Origin: Deltaproteobacteria bacterium
GTDB lineage: Bacteria > Desulfobacterota > Desulfuromonadia > Geobacterales > DSM-12255
Assembly: GCA_021849045.1 (NCBI GenBank)
Contig: JAJZTK010000024.1
Span: 1 to 39,247 of the forward strand
Length of the DNA: 39,247 bases
Direction of reading: 5' to 3'
A program made the position numbers and the translations under genes. Every line of letters starts with the position of its first letter. Within the stretch, counting starts at the first letter, position 1. Positions 23,660 through 39,247 of the stretch are shown here, in pieces. The notes beneath the pieces are model-generated. The model had not been told where the DNA came from and made no database searches. It was given only the letters and a program-made list of their open reading frames with translations.

Positions 23660-25585
23660 ATGAACACCCTAACCGAGCTTTACCGACAGAAGCTGAAAAC
23701 CGCAGATGAGGCGGTATGTCAGATACAATCCGGCTGGCGCGTTTTTGTAGGATCCGGTTGTGCGGTCCCGCAAACACTGGTTGCCGCTCTTTGCAGAAAC
23801 GCCAACCGTCTTCACGATCTAGAATTGATCCAACTCCTCTCCTTAGGGGCTGCCGATTATATTGCCGAACAAAATGCCGGGCATTTCCGGCACAACTCAT
23901 TCTTTATCAGCGAAAATGTCCGCCAGGCCGTTTGCGATGGGCGGGCCGATTACACGCCGATATTTCTGAGCGAAATTCCGGAACTTATCCGTAATGGTCA
24001 GCGAGGCAATCAAGTGGCCTTATTACAAGTGTCGCCGCCTGACAAACACGGATACTGCAGCATGGGAACAAATGTGGATATCCAGCGTGCGGCACTGGAT
24101 CGTGCCAAGCTGGTCATTGCCGAGGTTAACTGCCGAATGCCCAGGACTCACGGCGACAGCTACGTACACCTGAGTAAAATAGATTTTATGGTAGAGATCG
24201 ACCAGCCCATTCTCGAATCCGAGGCAAAGCAACCCGATGAGGTGGAGTTGCAGATTGGCTACCATATCTCACGCCTGGTGGAAAACGGCAGTTGCCTGCA
24301 GATGGGAATCGGCACCATACCCGGTACCGTATTGCAGTTTATTGCCGACAAGCGTGATCTCGGTATCCATACGGAGATGTTCAGCGATGCCTTGATACCA
24401 TTGATCGACGGAGGCAATATCACCAACCGCTTGAAACAGGTCTGCCCCGGCAAGACGGTCACCAGTTTTGTCATGGGCAGCAGAACGCTTTACGATTTTA
24501 TCGATGGCAATGCCGGCGTTGAATTTCATCCGTCGGATTTTGTCAACGATCCACGGGTGATTTCCAGCAACGACAAGGTGGTGGCGATCAATTCGGCGCT
24601 GCAGGTGGACCTGACCGGACAGATATGCGCCGACAGCATTGGTTACAAGTTTTACAGCGGCATTGGCGGTCAGGTGGATTTCGCCCGCGGTGCGGCCATG
24701 AGCCGGGGAGGCAAGCCGATCGTGGCAATCCGCAGTACCGCAAAAGATGGGACAATCAGCCGCATAGTGCACCGGATCGACGACGGCGCCGGCGTCGTCA
24801 CCAGCCGCGGTGATGCCCATTACGTGGTTTCCGAATACGGCATCGCCTACCTGCATGGCAAAACCATTCGCGAACGGGCTCTGGCATTGATCTCCATCGC
24901 CCACCCCGACTACCGCCAGGAGCTCTTGGATTTCGTCAAGAAGAAGCATTATGTCTATGAAGACGAGCAGGTGTGGCAACAGGCCCTGGATCAGTACCCA
25001 AAGGAGTTTGAGGAGCAGAGGCGGTTCGGCGGTACCATGATGCTGGTCAGACCCCTCAAGGCCACAGATGAACGTACCCTGCAGGAATTTTTCTATAGCC
25101 ACAATCCGGAAACCATCTACAACCGGTACTTCGGACCAAAACTGCAGCTTGCGCATCTGGAGGCGGCAAAACAGGTTTGCGTCGATTACCATAGTCGCAT
25201 GGCACTGGCTGTGTTCCTGCAGGTGGACAATGCCGAATCAATTGTGGCCGTAGCACGTTATGCGGTCAATCCCCGCACGAACATGGCGGAAACAGCGGTA
25301 GTGGTCCATGAGGATTTCCGCAGACTGGGGCTGGCCCAGTACCTGCTCCGGCAACTGGAACGTTACGCAATCAGCAAGGGAATCGAGGGGTTTTGTTCGG
25401 AGATTCTACCCACCAACGAGGCGATGATCAGCTATCACCGCAAGCTGGGCCATTCAGTGATATATTCGCAGGAAACGGACACCTATCACATGGAATTCCG
25501 TTTCAACAAGAAGCATCAGAAGATCGAGACAAAATCGGGGGGAGAAACGGGGCGGAGGGGTTCGGGCAGTGATTTCTCAGGTTGA
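23660..25585 (+). CDS. Acetyl-CoA hydrolase/transferase-family CoA-transferase fused to GNAT domain
   Basis: A 641-residue fusion. Residues 1-450 form a class I CoA-transferase of the acetyl-CoA hydrolase/4-hydroxybutyrate CoA-transferase family, with candidate catalytic glutamate E239 in HTEMFSDALIPLID, the GIGTIPG loop near 216-222 and GIGGQVDFARGA. From about 455 a GNAT acyltransferase domain follows (MMLVRPLKATDERTLQEFFY; acetyl-CoA loop region VHEDFRRLGLAQYLLRQLE). The tail is short, polar and disordered. It would exchange CoA between an acyl-CoA donor and an acid. A succinyl-CoA:benzoate CoA-transferase is known in Geobacter metallireducens, making an aromatic acceptor possible, but acetate or butyrate acceptors are equally likely. 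The GNAT part may be regulatory or may acetylate proteins. It is the only plus-strand gene between the left edge and the phenol operon. Confidence 0.9.
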   Translation: MNTLTELYRQKLKTADEAVCQIQSGWRVFVGSGCAVPQTLVAALCRNANRLHDLELIQLLSLGAADYIAEQNAGHFRHNSFFISENVRQAVCDGRADYTPIFLSEIPELIRNGQRGNQVALLQVSPPDKHGYCSMGTNVDIQRAALDRAKLVIAEVNCRMPRTHGDSYVHLSKIDFMVEIDQPILESEAKQPDEVELQIGYHISRLVENGSCLQMGIGTIPGTVLQFIADKRDLGIHTEMFSDALIPLIDGGNITNRLKQVCPGKTVTSFVMGSRTLYDFIDGNAGVEFHPSDFVNDPRVISSNDKVVAINSALQVDLTGQICADSIGYKFYSGIGGQVDFARGAAMSRGGKPIVAIRSTAKDGTISRIVHRIDDGAGVVTSRGDAHYVVSEYGIAYLHGKTIRERALALISIAHPDYRQELLDFVKKKHYVYEDEQVWQQALDQYPKEFEEQRRFGGTMMLVRPLKATDERTLQEFFYSHNPETIYNRYFGPKLQLAHLEAAKQVCVDYHSRMALAVFLQVDNAESIVAVARYAVNPRTNMAETAVVVHEDFRRLGLAQYLLRQLERYAISKGIEGFCSEILPTNEAMISYHRKLGHSVIYSQETDTYHMEFRFNKKHQKIETKSGGETGRRGSGSDFSG

Positions 25586-25654
25586 GGTATGGTGCTCTAA
25601 CATACCCGGACACGCGGCATGAGCGTGCTTCAACAAGAGAATACCCGGGCGGAA

Positions 25655-26122
25655 TCAGGCGGTACGGGAAGAGCTGGTTTTCTCGGGAGCCTTATTCTGG
25701 GCATCGGTCTCGGAGCGCTTGCGCGCGCTTTTCAATGCAGTGGCAAGGGTGATCGTATCCAGCACTGCCTTGGTAAGTTCGTCGATTTCGTTGGTGATAC
25801 TTTGCAACTCCGCCACGATGGGGTCGCCCGAGTGATTCCAGTGGTTCGGTATGTCGAGCTCCGACTCCAGGGTTTCAAAAAGTTGGATTACGTCCAGCAG
25901 CGTGGTGCGACTGACGTTTCCCGCGAACCGATATCCGCCGCCAACGCCACGCACCGCCTGTACCAGCCCCTCGTGAACAAGATTCCGCATCACTTTGGCA
26001 AGATGATGTGAAGATATCCCGTACTTGTCGGCAATATCGGTGGTTGAAAGCTGGCGATCAGCGTCGCTGGCCAGTTCGAGTACGGCAAGAAGGGCAAACA
26101 GGCTTCCTTTATTTAGCTTCAT
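25655..26122 (-). CDS. Rrf2-family transcriptional regulator without cysteines
   Basis: A 155-residue DNA-binding protein. The winged helix at about 1-80 contains STTDIADKYGISSHHLAKVMRNL as recognition region and the Rrf2 wing signature VRGVGGGYRF. It contains no cysteine at all, so it cannot ligate an Fe-S cluster as IscR or NsrR does; another ligand must be sensed. The tail from about 130 is polar and low-complexity. It lies 49 bp after the GNAT gene and is probably co-transcribed. A benzoate-pathway repressor of this family (BgeR) has been described in Geobacter bemidjiensis, so this may be a functional counterpart; the identity is inferred from family and context only. Confidence 0.9.
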   Translation of the reverse strand: MKLNKGSLFALLAVLELASDADRQLSTTDIADKYGISSHHLAKVMRNLVHEGLVQAVRGVGGGYRFAGNVSRTTLLDVIQLFETLESELDIPNHWNHSGDPIVAELQSITNEIDELTKAVLDTITLATALKSARKRSETDAQNKAPEKTSSSRTA

Positions 26123-26171
26123 GGTAAGATCCCACTCCGGTCAGCGACCCGGATAGTCTGGTAGATAAAGG

Positions 26172-26624
26172 TCAAAGCGAATCGAGCTTTTTTTCGAGCT
26201 CGACATAGCGGCCCGTCCGCAAACCCTGGCTGCGGAAAAATGACAGGGTGAGTGTATTATCGAGATGCACCATCGTTCGCACCGTCTTGATCCCGGTCTC
26301 CTTCAACCGCTTGCAAATCTCCTCGAACATCAGATGGGCGATCCCCCTCTGACGTACCTTTGGCGACACAGTCAGCGCAAACACCCAACCACACGGGGGC
26401 GAACCGAATTCCCAGGCACGCACCTCGCCAATGATAAAACCGACGACTTCTTTGCCGACTTCAGCGACCAGACAGAGCCGTTGCCCTTTATCGCTTATCA
26501 CATAGTGCTCAAAAACCCCGCGCCAGTAGGCAGGTTTTGCCTCCTCGGGGTCAACATCATCCAATGAGATAACGGCATCAAGGTCGGTCGGAACGGCATT
26601 GCGTATGGAAATCTGACTTTTCAT
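26172..26624 (-). CDS. Single-domain GNAT N-acetyltransferase
   Basis: A 150-residue acetyltransferase. The fold is complete: IRNAVPTDLDAVISLDD at the N-terminus, VGFIIGEVRAWEF in the central sheet, acetyl-CoA pyrophosphate loop VRQRGIAHLMFEEICKRL (Q/RxxGxA pattern) and the C-terminal FFRSQGLRTGRYVELEK. The ATG at 26624 follows AGGATACGGAA; the open frame extends 22 codons further without similarity to the family. It is first in an operon with the Rrf2 regulator. The substrate may be a protein lysine. In Rhodopseudomonas palustris a single-domain GNAT (KatA) acetylates aromatic acyl-CoA synthetases, and a ligase of this type is nearby. A small-molecule substrate cannot be excluded. Confidence 0.88.
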   Translation of the reverse strand: MKSQISIRNAVPTDLDAVISLDDVDPEEAKPAYWRGVFEHYVISDKGQRLCLVAEVGKEVVGFIIGEVRAWEFGSPPCGWVFALTVSPKVRQRGIAHLMFEEICKRLKETGIKTVRTMVHLDNTLTLSFFRSQGLRTGRYVELEKKLDSL

Positions 26625-26757
26625 TTCCGTATCCTGAATGATTGTTGCGTCGCAGCAACGTCCGGCCGAGTAATCTGCCGCACAGATCATTGATCATTGC
26701 CTGCGAGCATAAGGATCAGACCGCCCCTGTAGACTGCGAGCAAGAGAATGCTAATTT

Positions 26758-26792
26758 GGTACCTTAATACCACAATTTAAACCGATTTTCAA
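26758..26792 (-). promoter_or_regulatory. Promoter of GNAT-Rrf2 operon with GGTACC operator candidate
   Basis: On the minus strand TTGAAA (26792-26787), a 17-bp spacer and TATTAA (26769-26764) form a good sigma-70 promoter. ATTAAGGTACCAAATTA overlaps the -10 and start point and is nearly the same as the buk promoter sequence (ATTAAGGTACTAATTTA). Its position suits autorepression by the Rrf2 protein. Confidence 0.6.
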
Positions 26793-26836
26793 GTTTAATT
26801 ATTTTTCATCCCGAAAAGTGGCCAAACATACTCTTT

Positions 26837-27721
26837 TTACCATGATGTCCATGTTTCTCGGATGTATCCTTTCTCAGGCGACTCGATCGTCTCCCACGCA
26901 GACACAAAGGTTGTGTCATGAAGCCTGAGAACGGGATCAATGGTACCGTCCCGCATCACCTGATACCCCCCGGCAAGACTGGCACAGATGGGGGCCCCGA
27001 TTTCACGGATCACCTCAAAGACGATCCTTTCGCGTCTGGCCATCTGTTCGGTAGTGAGATTGCCGCCCAAGGGGTCGTCAATGTGGGAATCGACGCCGGC
27101 GTTGTAGATCACAAGGTCGACATCCGAAAATCCCCCCACGACACCCGGCAGCCTTTTCAGCCAGCGCTCCGCGGATGAGGATTTCGCATCCTGGTCCCCC
27201 CCGAAGCTGTAATGCCTGACATATTCCAGGTCAAGTCGCTCTATGATGTCGTCAGTACCGTTCCCGTAGTGATAGTCCAGGTCAAGGATACCAATCCGCC
27301 GGGCCCCGGCCCGATGTACCATTATTGCGGCAATGACAAGAAAATTGAAGGTACAGAAATCTCCGCCGCTGGCATAGCAGGCATGATGTGCGCCTGACGT
27401 AGGACTGAAACTCACCTCCTTGGTAATAAAGGAGTGCCGGGCAGCGGCAACCATGCTTCCGGCAACCCACGGCAAGGCCGCCGCAATCTCCGGGCTCCGG
27501 TTTTCATAACCGTTCATCTGGGTACATGAAAGCACACCGTCCACATACTCTCTGGCATGCGCCAGGGCAATGTCGTCAGCGGTAAGCGGCACAAAAGACT
27601 GCTCACAAAAGGGAATCCCTAGTTTTTTCCAGCTCTCCAGCACCTGTGCCGGCTTGCCGGCCGAAGGACTGAACGAGACCTGCCCCGAAACCGATTGTCG
27701 CTTATCGTAGAACACTCTCAT
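26837..27721 (-). CDS. Histone-deacetylase/acetoin-utilisation family zinc amidohydrolase
   Basis: A 294-residue deacetylase-like enzyme. Catalytic elements of the class II fold are visible: the HH pair in SGAHHACYASGGDFC, zinc ligands in GILDLDYHYGNGT (DxD..H), the later aspartate in NAGVDSHIDDPLGG, and the catalytic tyrosine in LAGGYQ. It likely removes acyl groups from protein lysines or polyamines. The ATG at 27721 with GGGAAAG upstream is preferred over the TTG six codons earlier. It follows a histidine kinase gene by 55 bp. In Rhodopseudomonas palustris a related enzyme, LdaA, deacetylates aromatic acyl-CoA synthetases. The neighbouring GNAT and ligase make the same role plausible here. 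Confidence 0.88.
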   Translation of the reverse strand: MRVFYDKRQSVSGQVSFSPSAGKPAQVLESWKKLGIPFCEQSFVPLTADDIALAHAREYVDGVLSCTQMNGYENRSPEIAAALPWVAGSMVAAARHSFITKEVSFSPTSGAHHACYASGGDFCTFNFLVIAAIMVHRAGARRIGILDLDYHYGNGTDDIIERLDLEYVRHYSFGGDQDAKSSSAERWLKRLPGVVGGFSDVDLVIYNAGVDSHIDDPLGGNLTTEQMARRERIVFEVIREIGAPICASLAGGYQVMRDGTIDPVLRLHDTTFVSAWETIESPEKGYIRETWTSW

Positions 27722-27776
27722 GGCTTTCCCATTGCACAATGACCGGGTCGGCTGCCATCCTGCGGCAACAGAGGTC

Positions 27777-29588
27777 TCAAAGCAACTGCTCTCCCTTTTC
27801 GGAAGGCCCCGTCAATGGCAGGACCACCGTAAAGGTGGCGCCAAGACCTGGCTCACTTTCAACCGTGACCGACCCGCCATGCCGAAGGACGATGGTCTGA
27901 AGGATCGACAGCCCCAACCCACCGCCGGAGGTCCTGGTTGTGTAAAATGGGTCAAACAGCTGCTCACTCTTGTCCTTCTGGATTCCTCCACCCGTATCGC
28001 TTACCATAATATGTGCCTGGCCGTCCTTGCCGTATGCGGTTATATCCAGACATCTTTCGTGTACGACCCCCTCCATGGCTTCGATGGCATTGAGGACAAG
28101 ATTCAGCAGCACCTGATGGATCTGCTCGGGGTCACAGACAAGCTGCACAGGGGAGTCGATGCTGATTTTGACATGAATGCGCTGGTCGGCAAGACGCTCC
28201 GACATCAGCTGAATCAACCGGCTGACAATCTCTCCAAGTTCAACGGACTGCAGCCGCAGCGGCCGGGGACGCGCAAAATCCATGACATCCTTGAGCAGAC
28301 GGTTGAGGCGCTGGATTTCACCATCGACAATGGAAAAGTTTTCGCAAAGGACACCTGAAGGATCGATTTTCTTGCGAATCATCTGCATATTCATCTGAAT
28401 AGCCGAGAGAGGGTTGCGGATTTCATGCACCAGTCCCAGTGCCAGGTGCCCCACAGCCGCCACTTTCTTGGCCACCAGCAGTTCATCGAAGGTGGACTCA
28501 AGGCGCGAATGCGCTTCACTGAGAGCCCTGGTGTGCAAGCCGACCTGGGTCGAAAGTGTCCTGTTCCAGTTGAACAACAGCGCCAGCAACAAGGTGGCGC
28601 CGCCGAGGATCGTCACCAGGAGTGTCGTTGAAATGGCTTCCTGACGTTGCAGGAAGGAGGACAGAAGCGCCTCCACCTCCCGCTCCGGCGTAGCGACGCC
28701 CAATATCCAGAGTCGATTCTCCAGGCGCACCGGATGGTAACTGACCAGTTTGCGAACGTGCCGGCTCGGGTCGTCCGGGTCCACGTAATCATACCAGTCA
28801 CTCCCCGGCTTACCGTCCCCGGCAGAGATCAACATATTGTAAATACGGGGCCATTTTGGGAGAAGCGCTTCCTCGAAGCTTTTCCCGGTAATTTTCCCGT
28901 TAGGATCGACAAGAATGGTTTTGTGGCTGCGGTCCATCAGCCAGGCATGGCCGTGTTTACCCATCCTGACGGAAAGGACATGCTTGCGCGCCAGTTCGTC
29001 AAAATTCAGCGTACAGGTGACAACACCAAGGAACTCCCCCTTCGGACCGTAAATACCTTCGGCAACGATAAGCTCCTTGACCCCGCGATGCCGCCCCCCC
29101 TCAAGCCGCATGAACGGCGTAAGATACATCCGCCCCGGCTCCTTGTTTTCCTTGGCCCAGCGGTAGTAGTCCCGCCAGGCATAGCTTCGGCCCAGGGTAA
29201 ACTGATCATTCGGCTCAATCGCAACCACGGTCCCGTTACGGTCGAAAACGACCAGGTCAATAAGAGGGGTATTGGCAAGGGAGCCGTAGATCTTCTTCAG
29301 ACTCCCTTTCACCTCTTCGGCACGTTGCCGGTTGACCTGTTTCCCGTCGAAGAGACTTGCCACGAGGTCCAGGTTGCGGTGGAACGTGGTGAACATTTCG
29401 TTGAGGCTCTGGGATGCCAATTCGGCCACGAGAAATTGCTGACGATTGTACTGTTCGAAGAAACGAGCGCGAGCCTCGGCCCGCACTCCGTTATTGGCAT
29501 GTTGAATCCAGAGGAGAGCGCTGATGGCACTGGCAACAATCAAAACCAGGGCAATCAACAGCTTATGCGTGCGCAAAAACATCATCAT
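27777..29588 (-). CDS. Cache-domain membrane histidine kinase
   Basis: A 603-residue sensor kinase. Transmembrane helices at about 10-28 and 318-340 flank a double-Cache periplasmic domain (LVVFDRNGTVVAIEPND; GRSYAWRDYYRWAKE; LMDRSHKTILVDPNGKI). The cytoplasmic part has a coiled coil, HisKA with H388 (LGLVHEIRNPLSAIQ) and an ATPase domain with N-box (LNLVLNAIEAM), G1 DTGGGI and G2 GGGLGLSI. This architecture resembles NtrB/DctB-type kinases that pair with sigma-54 response regulators. No gene with a receiver domain of that type is in reach, so it is an orphan here. It lies 114 bp after the phenol activator gene. No good ribosome site precedes the three tandem ATGs at 29588. Confidence 0.92.
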   Translation of the reverse strand: MMMFLRTHKLLIALVLIVASAISALLWIQHANNGVRAEARARFFEQYNRQQFLVAELASQSLNEMFTTFHRNLDLVASLFDGKQVNRQRAEEVKGSLKKIYGSLANTPLIDLVVFDRNGTVVAIEPNDQFTLGRSYAWRDYYRWAKENKEPGRMYLTPFMRLEGGRHRGVKELIVAEGIYGPKGEFLGVVTCTLNFDELARKHVLSVRMGKHGHAWLMDRSHKTILVDPNGKITGKSFEEALLPKWPRIYNMLISAGDGKPGSDWYDYVDPDDPSRHVRKLVSYHPVRLENRLWILGVATPEREVEALLSSFLQRQEAISTTLLVTILGGATLLLALLFNWNRTLSTQVGLHTRALSEAHSRLESTFDELLVAKKVAAVGHLALGLVHEIRNPLSAIQMNMQMIRKKIDPSGVLCENFSIVDGEIQRLNRLLKDVMDFARPRPLRLQSVELGEIVSRLIQLMSERLADQRIHVKISIDSPVQLVCDPEQIHQVLLNLVLNAIEAMEGVVHERCLDITAYGKDGQAHIMVSDTGGGIQKDKSEQLFDPFYTTRTSGGGLGLSILQTIVLRHGGSVTVESEPGLGATFTVVLPLTGPSEKGEQLL

Positions 29589-29702: not shown

Positions 29703-31436
29703 TCAGGAGGAAACGAGCCCGATGCCGGGTCGGGCCGGGTCGCCTTCGTGCAGGCGCCCAAGACGATAGGCGAGCTGACGCCGGGTCAGGCCGAGCATCC
29801 TGGCAGCTGAGGAAAGATTGCCGCGGGCCTTGGCCACCGCGGTTTCGACCAGCATGGCCTCGACCTGGTCCAGCGTCATGACCCCGTTAAAGACCGCCTC
29901 GCAAAGATCTTTGCCTGATTCCCAGCGGTTGGTGTCGAGAGCACCGTTGCCATCAAGACCAAATTCCACTGACTGCTGGTCGCCGCTTGCCGAAAACATC
30001 TGATCCTGCTCGATGCGGCTGCCGCTCGGGGCCAGAATGACGCCACGCTCAATCATGTTCTGCAATTCGCGAATGTTGCCAGGCCATGGGTAGGCAAGAA
30101 GTGCCCGCTTGGCCTTGTCGGTAAAACCGCGCAGCTTCTTGCCGTGGATAGCGGAATATTTTTCCAGAAAGCGCTTGGCCAGCAACGGGATGTCCTCTTT
30201 GCGTTCACGAAGAGGCGGGATGCCGATCTGGAAGGCATTCAGCCGGTAATACAGGTCCGAGCGGAATTTCCCCTCCTTGACCAGCTGTTTCAGATCGACG
30301 TTGGTTGCCGCCACCAGCCGCACATTGACCTTTCGTGTCTTCTGATCGCCAAGTCGCTCTATCTCCCCCTCCTGCAGCACGCGCAAAAGTTTGGCCTGAG
30401 CCGAAAGAGGCAGATCACCGATCTCGTCGAGGAACAGCGTGCCGCCGTCTGCCCGCTCAAACCGGCCCGGACGAGTGATTAGTGCTCCGGTATAGGCCCC
30501 CTTCTCAACCCCGAACAGCTCGGATTCCACCAGGTCGTGAGGAATGGCCGCGCAGTTAATGGCGATAAAGGATTCCTTGTGGCGGGCACTGCTGTCATGC
30601 AGGGTGCGGGCGAACACTTCCTTGCCGACACCAGTCTCCCCGAGGAGCAGTACCGTGATCTGACTCTTTGCCGCCTGCCGGAGCAATTCGTAGGCGGTTC
30701 GGAAGGGGGGTGAATTGCCCACTATGTCGGCGGGAAGTTTTTCCTTCTCGCCAATGACTGAACGGAGCTGCACCACCTGGGTCTGCAAGTCAATGAGCTG
30801 GTCGGCAATCGATTCCCGGCTGAAAAGGCGCGCATACTCGTTCGCGTCCTCCCATTCCGCAATCGGCTTACCGACAATGCGGCAATGGTTCTCTCCCATT
30901 CCCGCACACGCCACCTCCTTGTACAGGATCGGGCACCCCATGAAGGCCGTCGTATACCCGCTGGCATAGCCGATCTGGCCCCAGCAGACCGGAGCGGAGT
31001 GGGTACCGTAGTGGCGTCGGTGCCATTGGGCCTCCCATGAGTTCTCCCAGAGAAACTCGCCGTAGAAGCTTCCTGCAACACGGTCGAATTCAACCCTAAC
31101 CGGGACGACCTTGACCGACCCCTCCAGCATATGAAGTTGCGGACCGGTCATGAAGAGTTCCATGTCCGTCGCCCCCTCGAAGCGCGTCCGGGCAAGTTCG
31201 GCATCGTGCATCCCCGCCGCGTACCCCATGCGGGTGAGAAGCCCTTGTACGCGCTCCATGCCGAGCGTGTCGATCAACTCCCGGCGCAGCGTGGCCTGTG
31301 CCTCGGCATGGACCAGGAGCATACGATGTTCGTGCAGCCAGATATGGCCGGATTCAGCACAGAAATGGACCCGTGCGCGCAGATCTCCGTCGGTCGTATC
31401 GCGGGTGGGTTTACTGATACTGCGGAGCTTGGTCAT
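29703..31436 (-). CDS. DmpR/MopR-type phenol-responsive sigma-54 activator
   Basis: A 577-residue activator: XylR-N sensor domain (about 15-115), V4R domain (about 125-190), B-linker, AAA+ domain (235-460) and Fis-like HTH (SSAARMLGLTRRQLAYRL). The V4R zinc ligands C151, E174, C177 and C185 have exactly the spacing of MopR (C155, E178, C181, C189). H102 and W130 fall where MopR H106 and W134 hold the phenol hydroxyl. Walker A is GETGVGKE (266-273), Walker B GGTLFLDEIGD. The sigma-54 loop reads GAYTGA (313-318), a conservative variant of GAFTGA. It binds phenol directly in the cytoplasm and is divergent from the phenylphosphate synthase operon, whose control region carries paired palindromes and a -24/-12 promoter. 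Confidence 0.95.
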   Translation of the reverse strand: MTKLRSISKPTRDTTDGDLRARVHFCAESGHIWLHEHRMLLVHAEAQATLRRELIDTLGMERVQGLLTRMGYAAGMHDAELARTRFEGATDMELFMTGPQLHMLEGSVKVVPVRVEFDRVAGSFYGEFLWENSWEAQWHRRHYGTHSAPVCWGQIGYASGYTTAFMGCPILYKEVACAGMGENHCRIVGKPIAEWEDANEYARLFSRESIADQLIDLQTQVVQLRSVIGEKEKLPADIVGNSPPFRTAYELLRQAAKSQITVLLLGETGVGKEVFARTLHDSSARHKESFIAINCAAIPHDLVESELFGVEKGAYTGALITRPGRFERADGGTLFLDEIGDLPLSAQAKLLRVLQEGEIERLGDQKTRKVNVRLVAATNVDLKQLVKEGKFRSDLYYRLNAFQIGIPPLRERKEDIPLLAKRFLEKYSAIHGKKLRGFTDKAKRALLAYPWPGNIRELQNMIERGVILAPSGSRIEQDQMFSASGDQQSVEFGLDGNGALDTNRWESGKDLCEAVFNGVMTLDQVEAMLVETAVAKARGNLSSAARMLGLTRRQLAYRLGRLHEGDPARPGIGLVSS

Positions 31437-32287: not shown

Positions 32288-32447
32288 CATGGAGATATAG
32301 ATCCAGCGTGGTACCCGCAAGGATCAGCAGTTGGCAAGATAACATTGCGTAATCACCACTTGTAGCAGAACCATCTAACACCCGGTGCAAGAGGAACGTC
32401 ATTTCCGAAACCATGCAACATTCACGAACCAATTGGGGGGAGACGTA

Positions 32448-34277
32448 ATGAAATTTCCGAAGCCGCACGACATCAAGGACATTCCGGGAACAGAAGGTTG
32501 GGAAAGGATGTATCCGTACCAGTATCAGTTCGTCACCGACGACCCGGAACGCAAGGCCTACGAAGAGCAGGCATTCTGGTTCTACGACGGACTCCACTAT
32601 CCCGAGGCGATCTACCCCTTTGACACGATCTGGGACGAGGCCTGGTACCTGGGGTTGTCCCAGTACAACAACCGTATCTTCCAGGTGCCGCCAGTGCGCG
32701 GCGTGGACCATCGGATCATCAACGGCTACGTCTATATCTCGCCAGTGCCGGTAATGGACCCGGCAGAGATTGGCAGCCGTGTCCCGAACTTCATGGAGCG
32801 GGCCGGTTACTACTACAAGAACTGGAACGAGCTGGAAGCCAAGTGGGAAGAGAAGATGAAGCGGATCATCAAGGAGGTCGAGGATCTGCCGATTCCGCGT
32901 CTTCCCGATCTGGAAGATATCAGCGTGGTAACCGAGGGAGTCGGCGAATCCAAGGGGTTCCACCTGATCAAGGCCTATGACGACCTGATCAACCTCGGCA
33001 TCCAGTGCTGGCAGTACCACTTTGAATTTCTCAACCTCGGGTACGCGGCCTACGTCTTTTTCCTCGACTTCGTCCAGAAGCTGTTTCCGAGCGTCCCCCT
33101 GCAGAGCGTGACACAGATGATCGCGGGGATTGACGTGCTCATGTTCCGCTCCGACGAGGAGTTGAAAAAGCTGGCAAAAAAGGCGATCGAACTGGGGGTG
33201 GATCAGGTCCTCACCTCCTGCACGGAGTGGACGGATGCCGAGGCTGCCCTGAAGAGTCAGCCCAGGGGACAGGAGTGGCTTGCGGCCCTGGAAGAGGCCC
33301 GGTACCCCTGGTTCCACATATCCACCGGCACCGGCTGGTCCCACAGCGACAAATCCTGGAACGACGACCTGAACATACCGATGTCGGGCATCTCCACCTA
33401 CATCCAGCAGCTCAGGCAGGGAGTGGACATCGAGCGGCCGATGGAGAAGGTGCGTGCCGAACGCGACCGCATCACCGCCGAATATCGCAATCTGATCAAT
33501 TCGGACGAGGAGCGCAAGACCTTCGATGATCTGCTGGCCACTGCCAAGACGGTCTTCCCCTATGTGGAAAACCACCTGTTCTACGTCGAGCACTGGTTCC
33601 ACACCATCTTCTGGAGAAAGATGCGCGAAGTGGCGGCGATCATGAAGGAGCACGGCCTGATCGAAGATGTCGAGGATGTCTGGTATCTGCGCCGCGACGA
33701 GATCAAGCAGGCGCTGTGGGACGTGGTCACGGCCTGGGCAACCGGGGTCAAGCCGCGTGGCACAAAGGTGTGGCCGAAGGAAATCACCTGGCGAAAGGGG
33801 GTAATGCAAAAGTTCCAGGAATGGAGTCCCCCTCCTGCCATCGGCACGGCACCGGAGGTAATCCAGGAACCGTTCACCATCGTGCTGTGGGGGGTCACCA
33901 ATACGTCCATCTCCGATTGGGCGGAGGTCCAGGACGCCTCCGACCCGGACAGCATCACCTCCCTGAAGGGGTTCGCCGGCAGCCCCGGCGTTGTGGAAGG
34001 GAAAGCGCGTGTCTGCCGCAGCGCAGACGACATCCGCCTCCTGCAGGAGGGTGAAATCCTGGTTGCCCCCACCACCTCACCATCCTGGGCACCGGCCTTT
34101 GCCAAGATCAAGGCCGCTATTACCGACGTTGGCGGCGTCATGAGCCACGCGGCCATCGTCTGCCGCGAGTACGGCATGCCAGCGGTGGTCGGCACCGGGC
34201 TCGGGACGAAGATCATCAGGACCGGCATGACACTTCGGGTCGATGGCTCAACCGGGATCGTGACCATTGATCGCTGA
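32448..34277 (+). CDS. ppsA: Phenylphosphate synthase subunit A (PEP-synthase-like, catalytic His)
   Basis: A 609-residue protein matching the 70-kDa subunit of phenylphosphate synthase, which phosphorylates phenol with ATP as the first step of anaerobic phenol breakdown. The N-terminal two thirds (EGWERMYPYQYQFV onward) is specific to this family. The C-terminal domain is the PEP-utilising swivelling domain with the phospho-histidine at about H567 in GGVMSHAAIVCREYGMPAVVG. In Thauera this subunit carries a conserved histidine and exchanges phenol with phenylphosphate. I chose the ATG at 32448 because GGGGGGAGACGTA precedes it, not the upstream in-frame start at 32385. ppsB follows by 24 bp. 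The PEP-binding barrel of true PEP synthase is absent, as expected. Confidence 0.94.
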   Translation: MKFPKPHDIKDIPGTEGWERMYPYQYQFVTDDPERKAYEEQAFWFYDGLHYPEAIYPFDTIWDEAWYLGLSQYNNRIFQVPPVRGVDHRIINGYVYISPVPVMDPAEIGSRVPNFMERAGYYYKNWNELEAKWEEKMKRIIKEVEDLPIPRLPDLEDISVVTEGVGESKGFHLIKAYDDLINLGIQCWQYHFEFLNLGYAAYVFFLDFVQKLFPSVPLQSVTQMIAGIDVLMFRSDEELKKLAKKAIELGVDQVLTSCTEWTDAEAALKSQPRGQEWLAALEEARYPWFHISTGTGWSHSDKSWNDDLNIPMSGISTYIQQLRQGVDIERPMEKVRAERDRITAEYRNLINSDEERKTFDDLLATAKTVFPYVENHLFYVEHWFHTIFWRKMREVAAIMKEHGLIEDVEDVWYLRRDEIKQALWDVVTAWATGVKPRGTKVWPKEITWRKGVMQKFQEWSPPPAIGTAPEVIQEPFTIVLWGVTNTSISDWAEVQDASDPDSITSLKGFAGSPGVVEGKARVCRSADDIRLLQEGEILVAPTTSPSWAPAFAKIKAAITDVGGVMSHAAIVCREYGMPAVVGTGLGTKIIRTGMTLRVDGSTGIVTIDR

Positions 34278-34301: not shown

Positions 34302-35414
34302 ATGACTACCACAGCGAACGTACACGCAACCCAGTCTGACAAACCCCTGGTCTGCTGGTTCGAGGAGTGCAGGAAGGATTCGGTCCCCCTGGTCGGGGGA
34401 AAGTGTTCCTCGCTCGGCGAACTGATCAATGCCGGAGTCCGCGTCCCCCCCGGTTTCGCGCTCACCACCGAGGGGTATCGGAGCTTCATGGCCGACGCGG
34501 GGATCGACCGGGAAGTACAGTCCCTGCTGACCGGCATCGACGCCCGGGACATGGATGCCCTGGAGAATGCCAGCTCGGCCATCCGCGAGATGATCGAGTC
34601 CCACTCGTTCTCCATGGAAATAGAGGATCTGGTGGCGGAGAAGTACCGCAAGCTCTCGGTACGCAGCTGCCTGCCGGCGGTGCCGGTAGCCGTCAGGTCC
34701 AGCGCCACGGCCGAGGACCTGCCCGGAGCGAGTTTTGCCGGCCAACAGGACACCTATCTCTGGATCCGCGGCGTGGATGAAGTACTGCATCACATGCGCC
34801 GCTGCATCTCCAGCCTGTACACGGGCCGGGCCATTGCCTACCGGATCAACCAGGGGTACGCCGACGAGCAGGTGGCAATCAGCGTCGGCGTGCAGAAAAT
34901 GGCCAATTCGTTCACGGCAGGCGTGATGTTCACCATTCATCCGGCCAACGGCGACCGCTCGGTGCTCGTCATCGACTCCAACTACGGTTTCGGCGAGTCA
35001 GTGGTCTCCGGAGAGGTAACACCCGACAACTTCGTCGTGAACAAGATCACGCTGGACATCCTTGAGCGGACCATATCGCAGAAGGATATCTACTACACGG
35101 TGGACCAGAAGACGCAGGTATCCCGCCCCATAGAGGTACCGTTCGAGCGGCAGAAGGTGCAGTCGCTGATGGACGACGAGATCACCGAACTGGCCAGGAT
35201 GGGGAAGCTGATCGAGAAGCATTACGGCCGGCCCATGGATATCGAGTGGGCGGTGGACAAGGATCTCCCCTTCGGCGGCAACATCTTCATTCTGCAGGCG
35301 CGGCCCGAAACGGTCTGGAGTCAGAAACAGCAATCACCCGTAGCAGCCAAGGCAGGTGCTTCTGCCATGGATTACATCCTGGCCAGCATACTGGAAGGAA
35401 AACGAGTGGCGTAG
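34302..35414 (+). CDS. ppsB: Phenylphosphate synthase subunit B (ATP-grasp, N-terminal PEP-synthase-like)
   Basis: A 370-residue protein matching the 40-kDa subunit that binds ATP and phosphorylates PpsA. It corresponds to the N-terminal nucleotide-binding part of PEP synthase/pyruvate phosphate dikinase: LVGGKCSSLGELINAGVRVP at about 30-50, VAVRSSATAEDLPGASFAGQQDTYL at about 135-160, and the distal FILQARPETVWS where the family's ATP-binding domain ends. It starts 24 bp after the ppsA stop with AAAGGAGAC upstream; an in-frame GTG at 34278 is less likely. The C-terminus ends soon after the domain, as expected for a split enzyme. Together with ppsA and ppsC it forms the complete three-subunit set. 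Confidence 0.93.
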   Translation: MTTTANVHATQSDKPLVCWFEECRKDSVPLVGGKCSSLGELINAGVRVPPGFALTTEGYRSFMADAGIDREVQSLLTGIDARDMDALENASSAIREMIESHSFSMEIEDLVAEKYRKLSVRSCLPAVPVAVRSSATAEDLPGASFAGQQDTYLWIRGVDEVLHHMRRCISSLYTGRAIAYRINQGYADEQVAISVGVQKMANSFTAGVMFTIHPANGDRSVLVIDSNYGFGESVVSGEVTPDNFVVNKITLDILERTISQKDIYYTVDQKTQVSRPIEVPFERQKVQSLMDDEITELARMGKLIEKHYGRPMDIEWAVDKDLPFGGNIFILQARPETVWSQKQQSPVAAKAGASAMDYILASILEGKRVA

Positions 35415-35538: not shown

Positions 35539-37044
35539 ATGAGTAACCGTCCGGACGTAAAACCCATCAACGACATCAGGAGTTACATTGCAGCCCTTGA
35601 GGCCAACGGGGTACTGCATCGCGTTAAATCGGAAGTGGACTGGAAGTTCGAACTTGCCCACATATCCAAGGTGAACGAAGAGCAGAAAGGCCCGGCGTTG
35701 CTCTATGAGAATGTAAAAGGGCATACCATTCCGGTCTTCACCAGTGCCTTTACCACGCCTCAGCGGATCGCGATCTGCCTGGAGCAGGATCCGTCGCTTA
35801 CCATGTGTCAGCTTTCCCGGAAATGGATGGAACTGACCACCAAGCAGATGATCAAGCCCACGTTCGTTAAAAACCCGTCGGTGATGGAAAACATCATCGA
35901 GGAGAAAGATGTCGATCTGGAGAACTTCCCCGCTCCATGGTTTTATCCCGATGATGGCGGCCGTTTCTTCGGCACCTCCGGCTACCTGGTGACCCAGGAC
36001 CCGGACACCGGCTGGACCAACCTGGGCACCTATCGTTCGCAGATTCTGGGCAAGAATATTCTTGGCTCGCAGATCATCGCCGGCAAGCACGGCGAATTCC
36101 ACATGAAAAAGTACCAGGAGCGCGGCGAGAAGATGCCCGTTGCCTACGTGGTGGGCGGCGATCCGGTGCTGTTTTTGGCCAGTTCCACCCTGGTCAGCGC
36201 CCAGACGGACGAGTATGACGTGGGGGGGGCGCTGCGCGGCCGCCCGATCGAGGTGTTCAAGTCCGATCTTACCGGCCTGACACTGCCGGCCAACGCCGAG
36301 ATCATCGTCGAGGGGTGGATGGATCCGAACGAACTGATGGAGGAAGGCCCGTTTGGCGAATACACCGGGTACTACTCGGGGAACAAGATGAAGGACTATC
36401 CGAAGCCGGTCATCCGCGTGAAGCGGATCATTCACCGCACCAAGCCGGTCTTCTGGTCGACCACGGTCGGCAAGCCGATCAACGACACCCATATGGTCCA
36501 GTCACTCAACCGCACCGCCACGCTGTGGCACGACCTGGAAACCATGAAGGTGCCCGGCATCCAGAGCGTCTACTTCCCGGCCGCAGCCACCGGTCGTTTC
36601 TGGGTCGTTGTGTCCGTGAAGCAGATGTATCCGGGCCACTCGAACCACGTTGCCGATGCGGTGAACGGAAGCACCACCGGGCATTACGGTGTCAAGGGGA
36701 TCATCATTGTTGATCACGATATCGAGGCAGACGACATGGACCGTGTCTGGTGGGCGCTGGCCACCCGCTTCGATCCGAAGCGCTCGGTCCAGATCATCAC
36801 CCGCGGCCGTTCCACACCGCTCGATCCGGGCCTGCCGATCGAGGCTCGTGATGTGGTCAGCCGGATCATCATGGATGCCTGCACCCCCTACGAGTGGAAA
36901 AACAAACCGAACGAGATCTTCATGGATCGTGCGGTGCTGCAGAAGGTCTCCGACCGTTGGAACGAGTACGGTTTCACCGGGGTAAGTCCGGTGGCCGACA
37001 TGATTTCGCGCCTGACCCGGCCCGAAACGGTCAAGAAGAAGTGA
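35539..37044 (+). CDS. UbiD-family (de)carboxylase, probable phenylphosphate carboxylase subunit
   Basis: A 501-residue UbiD enzyme expected to use prenylated FMN. The catalytic triad seen in UbiD is preserved: R166 in GTYRSQ, E269 and E274 in EEGPFGEYTGYYSG. Metal/cofactor-site residues in NLGTYRSQI and GKHGEFHMKKY also fit. In phenol degraders the PpcA/PpcB subunits of phenylphosphate carboxylase are UbiD proteins producing 4-hydroxybenzoate. Placement directly after ppsAB supports that role. Only one UbiD gene is visible and no PpcC or PpcD, so the enzyme may be simpler than the four-subunit Thauera form, or further subunits may lie past the right edge. AAGGAGGCACG precedes the ATG, after a 124-bp gap from ppsB. 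Confidence 0.9.
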   Translation: MSNRPDVKPINDIRSYIAALEANGVLHRVKSEVDWKFELAHISKVNEEQKGPALLYENVKGHTIPVFTSAFTTPQRIAICLEQDPSLTMCQLSRKWMELTTKQMIKPTFVKNPSVMENIIEEKDVDLENFPAPWFYPDDGGRFFGTSGYLVTQDPDTGWTNLGTYRSQILGKNILGSQIIAGKHGEFHMKKYQERGEKMPVAYVVGGDPVLFLASSTLVSAQTDEYDVGGALRGRPIEVFKSDLTGLTLPANAEIIVEGWMDPNELMEEGPFGEYTGYYSGNKMKDYPKPVIRVKRIIHRTKPVFWSTTVGKPINDTHMVQSLNRTATLWHDLETMKVPGIQSVYFPAAATGRFWVVVSVKQMYPGHSNHVADAVNGSTTGHYGVKGIIIVDHDIEADDMDRVWWALATRFDPKRSVQIITRGRSTPLDPGLPIEARDVVSRIIMDACTPYEWKNKPNEIFMDRAVLQKVSDRWNEYGFTGVSPVADMISRLTRPETVKKK

Positions 37045-37056
37045 GTAACTGTGGGA

Positions 37057-37099
37057 CGGCAGGCGGCCTTGATTGCCGCCTGCCGAAGCAGCAATCAAG
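37057..37099 (+). other. RNA hairpin with competing downstream pairing
   Basis: The arms CGGCAGGCGGC (37057-37067) and GCCGCCTGCCG (37075-37085) form an 11-bp perfect stem with loop CTTGATT. The same loop plus GC (CTTGATTGC, 37068-37076) is complementary to GCAATCAAG (37091-37099), just before the ribosome site GGGAGGAAC of the next gene. There is no T-run, so it is not a standard terminator. It could be an mRNA stability or translation-control structure. Confidence 0.6.
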
Positions 37100-37114
37100 A
37101 GGGAGGAACATACC

Positions 37115-38368
37115 ATGGCCCGGAAAAAGGGTATCGTCATCATCTGCAACCTGGACACGCGGGGCGAGGATATCATTTTTGTCAAACATATGATCGAGGA
37201 ACGGGGGCATAACGCCTATTTCCTTGATTTCAGCATGGAGGAGCCACCCCCCTTTCCCGGAGATATCACCTGTGAACAGGTGGCTGAGCGGGGTGGCATG
37301 ACGATTGAAGCCGTGCGGGAATGCTATCGTTCCGATCGTGATCGGGCAATGGGAAACCAGATTAAGGGTGCGAAAGCAATTGTCGCCGACATGATGAAAG
37401 AGGGAAAGGTTCAAGGGGTCTTCGGAGTTGGCGGCGGGACGTCGTCGCTCGTCGGCACCAGCGTCATGAAAAGCCTCCCCTTTGGCATGCCCAAACTGAT
37501 GGCGTCCCCCATGGCGGCTCATCCGGCCTATGTCGGCAAGTACGTCGGCACCTCTGACATCACCATGCACCATACGGTGCTCGATGTAGTGAAGATGAAC
37601 CCGCTCCTGAAGGCGCAGATCATCAACGCGGTGGGCGCCATCTGCGGCATGGTCGAGGTGACCCAGGGGACGAACATCACGTTCGACAAGCCGTGTGTTG
37701 CCATCTCCTCGTTCGGCTTCGGCGAGATGGCGGTGCAGGCGGCACTGTCCATGCTGGAGGAGGCCGGTTTCACCCCCATCGTCTGCCATGCCCAGGGCAA
37801 GGGGGACAAGGCAATGGAGGATATGATCAGCGCCGGCGCTTTCCATGGGGTGCTTGACATCTGCACCGGGGGGATCATCGAAAACCTGTTCCAGGGCAAC
37901 CGCGATCCCGGGCCGGACCGGCTGAATGCGGCAGTGGAGACCGGCATTCCCATGGTGCTGGCGCCGTGCGGCCTCGACATTCTGTCCTACGGCGGTCGTG
38001 CCGACATGCTGGAAAAGACCAAGGACCGCCCCCAGTACGTGCAGGACTCGCTTCGGGTCCAGGTGCGCACCAGCGCCGACGAACTGCGCCAGGCTGCCGA
38101 CGTTATTGCCGATCGGCTCAACCGGGCCAAGGGTGCCTGGACCTTCCTGATTCCGCTCAAGGGATGGTCGTCCCAGGATCTGGAAGGGAGGATCATTTAC
38201 GACCCGGTTGCCGACGCCGCCTTTGTCGCCCGGCTGAAGGAAAAACTGAATGAACCCGACCGGGTCAAGGAAGTCGACCTGCACCTGTACACCCCTGAAT
38301 TCGCCCGCGTGGCAGTCGACGAATTCGTACGGCTCTATACGGGTGAACAGGCAAAAGCAGTGGCATAA
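37115..38368 (+). CDS. Tm-1-like ATP-binding domain protein (UPF0261 family)
   Basis: A 417-residue protein of the UPF0261/Tm-1-like family. The N-terminal half has the family nucleotide-binding features: IVIICNLDTRGEDI at the start and the glycine-rich GVGGGTSSLVGTSVMKSLPFGMPKLMASPMAA near 103-135. The C-terminal half has GVLDICTGGIIENLFQGNRDPGPDRL and LAPCGLDILSYGG. Its enzymatic role is not established for bacteria. GGGAGGAACATACC precedes the ATG at 37115. It sits between the carboxylase and ppsC in a single operon, so it is expected to act in phenol metabolism, perhaps as an ATP-dependent accessory or repair factor. This is inference from position only. Confidence 0.9.
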   Translation: MARKKGIVIICNLDTRGEDIIFVKHMIEERGHNAYFLDFSMEEPPPFPGDITCEQVAERGGMTIEAVRECYRSDRDRAMGNQIKGAKAIVADMMKEGKVQGVFGVGGGTSSLVGTSVMKSLPFGMPKLMASPMAAHPAYVGKYVGTSDITMHHTVLDVVKMNPLLKAQIINAVGAICGMVEVTQGTNITFDKPCVAISSFGFGEMAVQAALSMLEEAGFTPIVCHAQGKGDKAMEDMISAGAFHGVLDICTGGIIENLFQGNRDPGPDRLNAAVETGIPMVLAPCGLDILSYGGRADMLEKTKDRPQYVQDSLRVQVRTSADELRQAADVIADRLNRAKGAWTFLIPLKGWSSQDLEGRIIYDPVADAAFVARLKEKLNEPDRVKEVDLHLYTPEFARVAVDEFVRLYTGEQAKAVA

Positions 38369-38398: not shown

Positions 38399-39058
38399 AT
38401 GATAGTGCGCAACTGGATGCAAACCAACCCGATGACTGTTCCGAGCGATACGCTTGCCGCGGAGGCAAAGCGCCTCCTCATCGACAACAATCTGAATGCG
38501 CTGCCCGTGGTGGACAACGGACGGTTACGCGGCCTGGTAACGCGACACAATATGCTGCGCATGGGTCACTACGTTACGCGCACCCAGAATCCGGACGAAT
38601 TGAGTTTCTTTGTGAACCGGCTCAAGGTGCGTGATTTCATGGTCCGCAATCCGGCCACCGTGAGTGCAGACGACACCATGGAGCATTGCCTGCGTTACGG
38701 CAAGGAACTGATGGTGGCACAGTTTCCCGTCATGGACGGGGGAGAGGTGGTGGGGATCATCTCGGCACACGAGATTTTCCAGCTCGCCGCCCACTGCGTT
38801 GGAGCCTGGGAACGACGCAACGGCGTGACCCTTGGCGGAATACGGCTCAGTCCCGGCGTACTGGGCAAGATCGCCGATGTGGCCGAAGCTGCCGGTGCCG
38901 TACTGCAGGCGATCTATCCGATAGCAATGCACGATAAACAGGCGGATGACGGCTATCCGGAGAAATCGGTCATCCTTCGCTTCCATTCCCCTGATTTTGA
39001 AAAAGTTATTTCCGCCCTGGAGTCGGCAGGTTTCTTCCCGGTCAGCGGGAGATGCTGA
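38399..39058 (+). CDS. ppsC: Phenylphosphate synthase stimulatory subunit C (CBS protein)
   Basis: A 219-residue protein with two CBS motifs at 1-60 (VRNWMQTNPMTVPSDTLAAE; ALPVVDNGRLRGLVTRHNML) and about 77-130 (VRDFMVRNPATVSADDTMEH; FPVMDGGEVVGIISAHEIF). A C-terminal ACT-like region follows from about 145. In Thauera the 24-kDa third protein of phenylphosphate synthase also has CBS domains and stimulates the enzyme severalfold. Size and operon position fit. CBS domains commonly bind AMP/ATP, so it could link phenol activation to energy state. AAGGAGGATGGGCA precedes the ATG; the gap from the Tm-1-like gene is 30 bp. Confidence 0.9.
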   Translation: MIVRNWMQTNPMTVPSDTLAAEAKRLLIDNNLNALPVVDNGRLRGLVTRHNMLRMGHYVTRTQNPDELSFFVNRLKVRDFMVRNPATVSADDTMEHCLRYGKELMVAQFPVMDGGEVVGIISAHEIFQLAAHCVGAWERRNGVTLGGIRLSPGVLGKIADVAEAAGAVLQAIYPIAMHDKQADDGYPEKSVILRFHSPDFEKVISALESAGFFPVSGRC

Positions 39059-39118: not shown

Positions 39119-39247
39119 ATGAGCCTTCCATTGGTAGTGGCAATTACCGGCGCAACAGGGGTGATATACGGGGTGGAGATGCTGAGCGTGCTGAAAGGAT
39201 TGGGGCAGGAGACCCACCTCATCGTCAGCGAGGCGGCAAGCAAGAAC
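39119..39247 (+). CDS. ubiX: UbiX-type flavin prenyltransferase, C-terminus cut by window edge
   Basis: The first 43 codons of a UbiX/PAD1-like protein that makes prenylated FMN. The start MSLPLVVAITGATGVIYGVE carries the FMN-binding GAS/TGxxYG motif of the family, and VSEAASK aligns with the next flavin-contact loop. GAGAGGAGCAAATC precedes the ATG. It would supply the cofactor for the UbiD enzyme encoded four genes upstream. Only about a fifth of the expected length is in the window. Confidence 0.9.
   Translation, partial: MSLPLVVAITGATGVIYGVEMLSVLKGLGQETHLIVSEAASKN

Follow-up and report, generated by a model that had tools for sequence, protein, structure and literature searches.

A UPF0261 protein encoded in anaerobic phenol operons as a candidate partner of alpha-less phenylphosphate carboxylase

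What does a member of the UPF0261 family do inside an operon for anaerobic phenol degradation? The question is raised by contig JAJZTK010000024.1 of a Deltaproteobacteria bacterium (assembly GCA_021849045.1), the whole of which, 39,247 nucleotides, is the window analyzed here and in which the operon runs in the order ppsA, ppsB, ppcB, UPF0261, ppsC, ubiX. Our tentative answer, to which we give a chance somewhat short of even, is that the UPF0261 protein belongs to the anaerobic phenol operon as a dedicated component and acts as the partner of an alpha-less PpcB at the phenylphosphate step. The features on which the argument draws are as follows:

29703-31436, minus strand: MobR-like sigma-54 activator (XylR_N/V4R), divergent from the operon (Pfam, NCBIfam, related loci)
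32385-34277, plus strand: ppsA, phosphohistidine subunit of phenylphosphate synthase (Pfam/NCBIfam); the start may be 32448
34302-35414, plus strand: ppsB, ATP-grasp subunit of phenylphosphate synthase (PPDK_N; position as in related loci)
35539-37044, plus strand: ppcB, UbiD-type phenylphosphate carboxylase beta subunit (TIGR02724)
37058-37084, plus strand: intercistronic hairpin GGCAGGCGGC-CTTGATT-GCCGCCTGCC in the gap between ppcB and the UPF0261 gene (sequence and folding, z -3.1)
37100-37106, plus strand: ribosome site AGGGAGG of the UPF0261 gene, 8 bases ahead of its ATG (sequence)
37115-38368, plus strand: UPF0261 (Tm-1/MarK family) protein gene (ORF, Pfam, NCBIfam, model)
38399-39058, plus strand: ppsC, CBS-domain stimulatory subunit of the synthase (Pfam, related loci)
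39119-39247, plus strand: ubiX, 5' end only, flavin prenyltransferase making prFMN (ORF, related loci)

The ppcB product passes the TIGR02724 equivalog model with 551.1 bits (cut-off 468.95). The ubiX gene is partial because the contig ends there; it is complete in L003, a locus 97% identical to that of the window. A sigma-54 promoter ahead of ppsA was considered and rejected, as pattern matches were no commoner than chance, and an Rfam search of the operon gave no match. Elsewhere in the window lie an acetyl-CoA hydrolase/transferase fused to a GNAT domain (23660-25585) and a stretch (25619-29588) encoding a GNAT protein, a histone-deacetylase-like protein and a dCache sensor kinase.

The UPF0261 reading frame opens with ATG and encodes 417 amino acids. 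An in-frame TTG at 37073 is a possible alternative start, and 37115 is favored because of the ribosome site and because the family alignment begins at residue 1. The reading frame, the AGGGAGG motif and the neighbors all agree with the earlier note, which had placed the gene between the carboxylase and ppsC with a ribosome site of its own. The protein belongs to UPF0261: both domains of the family lie far above the curated Pfam cut-off of 27 bits, with 165.6 bits for PF06792 (N domain, residues 6-183) and 225.3 bits for PF23189 (C domain, residues 192-407). The protein also matches NCBIfam NF002676 with 603.6 bits against a cut-off of 556, an equivalog that carries only the name "hypothetical protein", and it retains the invariant residues G107, D148, G228, P279, P347 and F396. 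The hairpin ahead of the gene is strong, with 10 pairs and no T-run after it, and is possibly a transcript-processing or stability element. The same gap forms strong stems of other sequence in L003, L004, L006 and L007 of the Geobacter order (z -2.6 to -5.1); no hairpin was seen in this gap in L016.

A scan of the genome collection with the window's UPF0261 protein returned 80 loci from relatives of Geobacter, beta-, alpha- and gammaproteobacteria, Myxococcota, Spirochaetota and Bacillota, and in nearly all of them the gene sits among ppsA-ppsB-ppcB-[UPF0261]-ppsC-ubiX. The arrangement varies: the gene stands ahead of ppsA in spirochaetes (L070, L073), a Bacillota contig reads ppsB-UPF0261-ppcB-ppsA (L082), and in L067 and L069 the gene lies apart from the rest, adjoining mobR. 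Genes that are shuffled yet co-located are stronger evidence of linkage than a copied order. The earlier note had considered that the gene might be rarely linked to pps genes elsewhere; what we found is tight linkage to pps/ppc genes in distant bacteria. Since the 80 loci were picked by similarity to the gene itself, two less biased tests were made, one within the window's order and one seeded with PpcB. A close PpcB occurs in seven of the 141 genomes of the order, and the UPF0261 gene accompanies it in all seven, about 70-135 bases away. In the case of an eighth copy in the order (G924; 87% identical), a contig end has probably cut off ppcB, and the other UPF0261 copies among the 141 genomes are paralog-type. 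The linkage is established. In many proteobacterial operons, another gene is inserted between UPF0261 and ppsC (L013:11251-11847, L026, L038, L040, L044, L049, L078 and others); it encodes a NUDIX hydrolase, and its identification as the delta subunit was rejected.

Which carboxylase does the gene accompany? PpcABCD of Thauera aromatica serves the same pathway, contains a member of the same PpcB family and is surrounded by the same synthase and regulator genes; however, Thauera-type loci hold alpha, gamma and delta and no UPF0261 gene at the site, whereas the window genome has none of these three subunits. It gave no match at all to TIGR02725 (gamma, PpcC), none above the cut-off to TIGR02726 (delta, PpcD; the best score, 166 on another contig, falls short of 282) and none above the cut-off to TIGR02723 (alpha, PpcA). 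The window carboxylase is not of the four-subunit Thauera type: PpcB passes its model, and none of alpha, gamma and delta exceeds its cut-off. The absence of PpcC and PpcD, which the earlier note had remarked on between ppsB and ubiX, extends to the whole genome. An alpha subunit above the cut-off was found in 0 of the 76 genomes with PpcB and UPF0261 (the window's included) and in three of three controls.

The PpcB-seeded test covered 395 Desulfobacterota genomes; fetching the DNA around matches above the cut-off gave 71 loci, chosen independently of UPF0261. These show two architectures, PpcB with delta, alpha and gamma (e.g., L088, alpha 690 bits) and PpcB without them, and a UPF0261 gene lies within 6 kb in 39 of the 47 alpha-less loci versus 4 of the 24 alpha-bearing ones. 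Five of the eight alpha-less loci that do not have it are on contigs ending near ppcB, and the other three (L100, L129, L136) have long flanks, yet no UPF0261 gene nearby. The alpha-bearing loci L092, L094 and L104 hold a UPF0261 gene of the pps/ppc clade (see below) near the same operon, and in L183 and L184, from alpha-bearing genomes, a clade member stands beside PpsAB; strict mutual exclusion of UPF0261 and alpha was rejected on account of these five genomes. The association of UPF0261 with alpha-less carboxylases is strong but not absolute. On the PpcB tree, the loci with alpha group as a single clade, flanked by two clades that bear UPF0261, so that the swap occurred about once, and with a single switch the small Fisher p-values are pseudo-replicated and do not stand for many independent cases. 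The value of 7.5e-8 was therefore rejected as independent evidence, and an independent-pairs test had too few pairs. The UPF0261-linked PpcB proteins span two deep PpcB clades. In the Thauera-type locus L166, mobR, ppsA (77%), ppsB (74%) and ppsC (61%) are kept, the carboxylase genes read PpcB-D-A-C, and no UPF0261 gene lies within the 20 kb fetched; in L167, the counterpart from betaproteobacteria, UPF0261 is found instead. Near the alpha/gamma/delta-type locus L112 (G361) lies a remnant of a UPF0261 gene, interrupted by several stop codons.

The predicted model of the window's UPF0261 protein (pLDDT 96) matches tomato Tm-1 with a Z of 42 and PDB 9mpy with a Z of 33.7 at 30% identity. Further fold matches of the N domain to sugar-nucleotide 2-epimerases (Z about 12) were set aside, as they share the arrangement only. 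By its title, 9mpy is Saro_1862, a UPF0261 domain protein of Novosphingobium aromaticivorans, bound to acetovanillone; it has the two-domain fold in common with our model and shares G107, K127, D148, G228, R269, R305, P347 and G350. Judged by the same organism and the same ligand, and by an author who is a crystallographer, Saro_1862 is very probably the kinase MarK. MarK is reportedly the subject of Hall et al. (2025, J Biol Chem 301:110606). It is a single-component kinase and the enzyme with which acetovanillone catabolism begins (PMC13101465). Together with the acetovanillone-bound structure, this means that at least one bacterial UPF0261 member binds a phenol and very likely phosphorylates it, and the earlier note's view of a family without an established bacterial function is out of date. 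MarK resembles the proposed system in its phenolic substrates and in a pathway with phosphorylated intermediates; it differs in that acetovanillone catabolism uses a biotin carboxylase, in falling outside the pps/ppc clade on the UPF0261 tree, and at two sites, G231 and E253, which are D and G in the window protein. Tm-1 (PDB 3wrw, 3wrx, 3wry) likewise shares the fold and core residues and has G231 and E253, unlike the window protein. Plant Tm-1 is fused to a TIM-barrel (TBST) domain (PMC5028733). A partnership of this kind was rejected as an explanation: TBST (PF09370) has no match in the window genome and is present in 1 of 14 other genomes tested.

On a tree of 65 UPF0261 proteins, a single group of 31 (SH-aLRT 99) unites the members encoded in pps/ppc clusters and stands apart from MarK, Tm-1 and most other UPF0261 copies. 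The signature of this clade is the change of G231 to Asp and of E253 to Gly in two beta-alpha loops. In every tree member of the group, position 231 is D or E and position 253 is G or A (D231/G253 in the window), and the proteins outside it, MarK and Tm-1 included, have E253 and, save for a few poorly aligned exceptions, G231. Across 135 sequences from the fetched loci, the changed pair occurs in 118 (D/E with G/A/S, one of them D with S), the original pair in 17 and a mixed pair in none. In the model, each of the two positions is close to where a helix begins after one of two neighboring strands, the region in which such folds have their active sites, and an acidic group may have moved from one loop to the next. 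The window protein does not carry the MarK-type residues at this presumed active site. H225 and H390 are also relaxed, often missing, in the Desulfobacterota branch of the clade, and most core residues are common to the clade and MarK. The changed signature and the relaxed histidines argue against simply naming the protein a MarK kinase. ATP binding, to which "ATP-binding-like" in the earlier note refers, is presumed from the relatives; two loop residues that look like part of the active site differ from those of MarK and Tm-1, so that ATP use by this protein is putative. Twelve alpha-less Desulfobacterota loci carry one original-type and one changed-type copy each; such pairs of a changed and an original (MarK-like) gene were observed in L163 (12543-13754), L160 (5439-6650), L153, L155, L121, L134 and L152. 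The window genome has a paralog on another contig (L083:596-1855; 74% identical, changed-type clade) in an operon encoding a PNPOx-like protein, SDR enzymes, a thiolase, a NagD-like HAD hydrolase, DUF1329, a YCF48-like protein, a transporter-like protein and a sigma-54 regulator, with no UbiD gene.

The same gene is found in an organism whose phenol carboxylation has been studied. Genome G184 was taken as Desulfatiglans anilini because its PpcB masses (52.240 and 51.922 kDa) equal those printed for 02059 and 03563 and because its PpcB proteins from the aniline and phenol clusters are 51.709% identical, in agreement with the printed 51.71%. Both its clusters hold PpcB-type carboxylases without gamma and a UPF0261 gene. 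The phenol cluster encodes PpcB, a CoA ligase, UPF0261, UbiX, flavin and iron-sulfur subunits, a molybdopterin subunit and PpsA, a run that fits tags 02059 to 02052 and thus makes UPF0261 02057; in the aniline cluster, UPF0261 lies between the PpsB-like 03868 and the CoA ligase 03870 and is thus 03869. The published "ppc-alpha" 03563 scores as beta-type (TIGR02723 219, cut-off 565; TIGR02724 513, cut-off 469). The searched text of PMC6114531 and PMC7500099 makes no mention of the UPF0261 protein. The enzymes of cluster 02049-02059 are reported to be far more abundant on phenol, and the mechanism put forward there is another one, going as far as a variant with CO (PMC6114531). The recombinant PpcB pair, without UPF0261, carboxylated phenylphosphoamidate in vitro and did not convert phenylphosphate (PMC7500099). 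The former result limits any claim that UPF0261 is generally needed, and the latter is compatible with a factor being absent in the case of phenol.

On the reading that we favor, the UPF0261 protein would be a binder of phenol or phenylphosphate with a phosphotransferase fold that probably handles the phosphoryl group for PpcB. In the mechanism that we infer, phenylphosphate would be made by PpsABC as before; the UPF0261 protein would bind phenol or phenylphosphate, probably together with a nucleotide, in its interdomain cleft, and would assist PpcB, here a lone UbiD-type protein, at the phenylphosphate step by holding phenylphosphate and removing or transferring its phosphoryl group, whereupon phenolate would be carboxylated. 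In Thauera, this task falls to delta, a HAD phosphatase, together with alpha and gamma. Two substrates of the pathway, phenol and phenylphosphate, could fit a pocket like that of MarK. Because PpsABC already makes phenylphosphate and the dephosphorylating set is absent, the simplest reading is that UPF0261 serves there. The multi-phylum linkage, the absence of alpha, the fold, the signature, the D. anilini clusters and the PpcB pair that left phenylphosphate unconverted speak for such a partner; the one-event swap, the three alpha-less exceptions, the clade copies near alpha, the UbiD-free paralog operon and the in vitro carboxylation of phenylphosphoamidate in its absence speak against it. 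The suggestion in the earlier note that the protein replaces an accessory function fits the linkage, the missing PpcA, PpcC and PpcD and the occurrence of UPF0261 mostly where those are absent; the replacement itself we infer. A wider claim, that there are two kinds of phenylphosphate carboxylase and that in the second a single PpcB with a D231/G253 UPF0261 protein replaces alpha, gamma and delta through phosphoryl handling, is possible but rather doubtful. If true, the second kind would be used by D. anilini, the operon-bearing members of Geobacter's order and many proteobacteria.

The main rival, unlikely in our judgment but a serious one, is a one-step, ATP-dependent kinase of the MarK type acting on phenol or a substituted phenol, which would offer a route cheaper than PpsAB or additional to it and would be unrelated to the carboxylase as such. 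The acetovanillone-bound structure of the closest solved bacterial relative, the single-component action of MarK and the majority of core residues in common all agree with it, as does the window-genome paralog near a NagD-like HAD hydrolase, which recalls HpeD in the Hpe pathway. Yet nearly all the same operons already encode PpsAB, the maker of phenylphosphate, and the clade has lost the E253 that MarK and Tm-1 keep, with H225 and H390 often gone in its Desulfobacterota branch; moreover, a kinase leaves the rarity of the gene beside alpha/gamma/delta carboxylases unexplained. An accessory of the synthase PpsABC, for phenol delivery or enzyme stabilization, for example, would account for the window position between ppcB and ppsC and for 4 of 20 background loci (L169, L180, L183, L184) where UPF0261 stands next to PpsAB with no PpcB nearby, two of which carry pps/ppc-clade members. 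We hold this to be improbable, as PpsAB occurs without UPF0261 in the alpha-bearing L166, L088 and L086, PpcB and UPF0261 occur with no PpsAB in the fetched DNA of L150 and L159, and Thauera PpsAB phosphorylates phenol without UPF0261 (PMC12167813).

Two other explanations have, to our mind, a very small chance each. A location between ppcB and ubiX, and the diverse helper proteins known next to UbiD genes (PMC10865409), would suit a helper for the uptake or maturation of prenylated flavin in PpcB, in the manner of LpdD for UbiD decarboxylases; the solved bacterial relative, however, binds a phenolic compound and not a flavin, the fold is unlike that of LpdD, and the paralog and many relatives lie away from UbiD genes. 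Equally remote is a passenger role, in which the gene accompanies the operon while its product serves a neighboring pathway or works on a side product: the UPF0261 family is indeed large and found in many gene contexts, but this gene stays with the operon through reordering in several phyla, and its PpcB partners span both deep clades.

The partner role that we favor bears on phenylphosphate carboxylation in obligate anaerobes that lack gamma and have only a PpcB homologue. For almost all operons of this type it supplies a specific candidate that has a named relative, a model of high confidence and two signature residues, and it would assign a function in bacteria to a family known chiefly for a virus-resistance gene of plants.

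Two further genes recur at these loci. In L003 (16340-17398, minus strand), a gene near the phenol operon encodes a CTP-dependent riboflavin kinase domain joined to a HAD phosphatase; the kinase domain also adjoins ubiX in L088, L090, L092, L096, L097, L099, L101, L104 and L166, is often beside ubiX at alpha-bearing loci, and perhaps supplies FMN for prFMN. A small protein that by eye resembles PNPOx-type flavin-binding proteins adjoins mobR in L003 (17385-17867, minus strand) and in 40 other loci, about half of the phenol loci.
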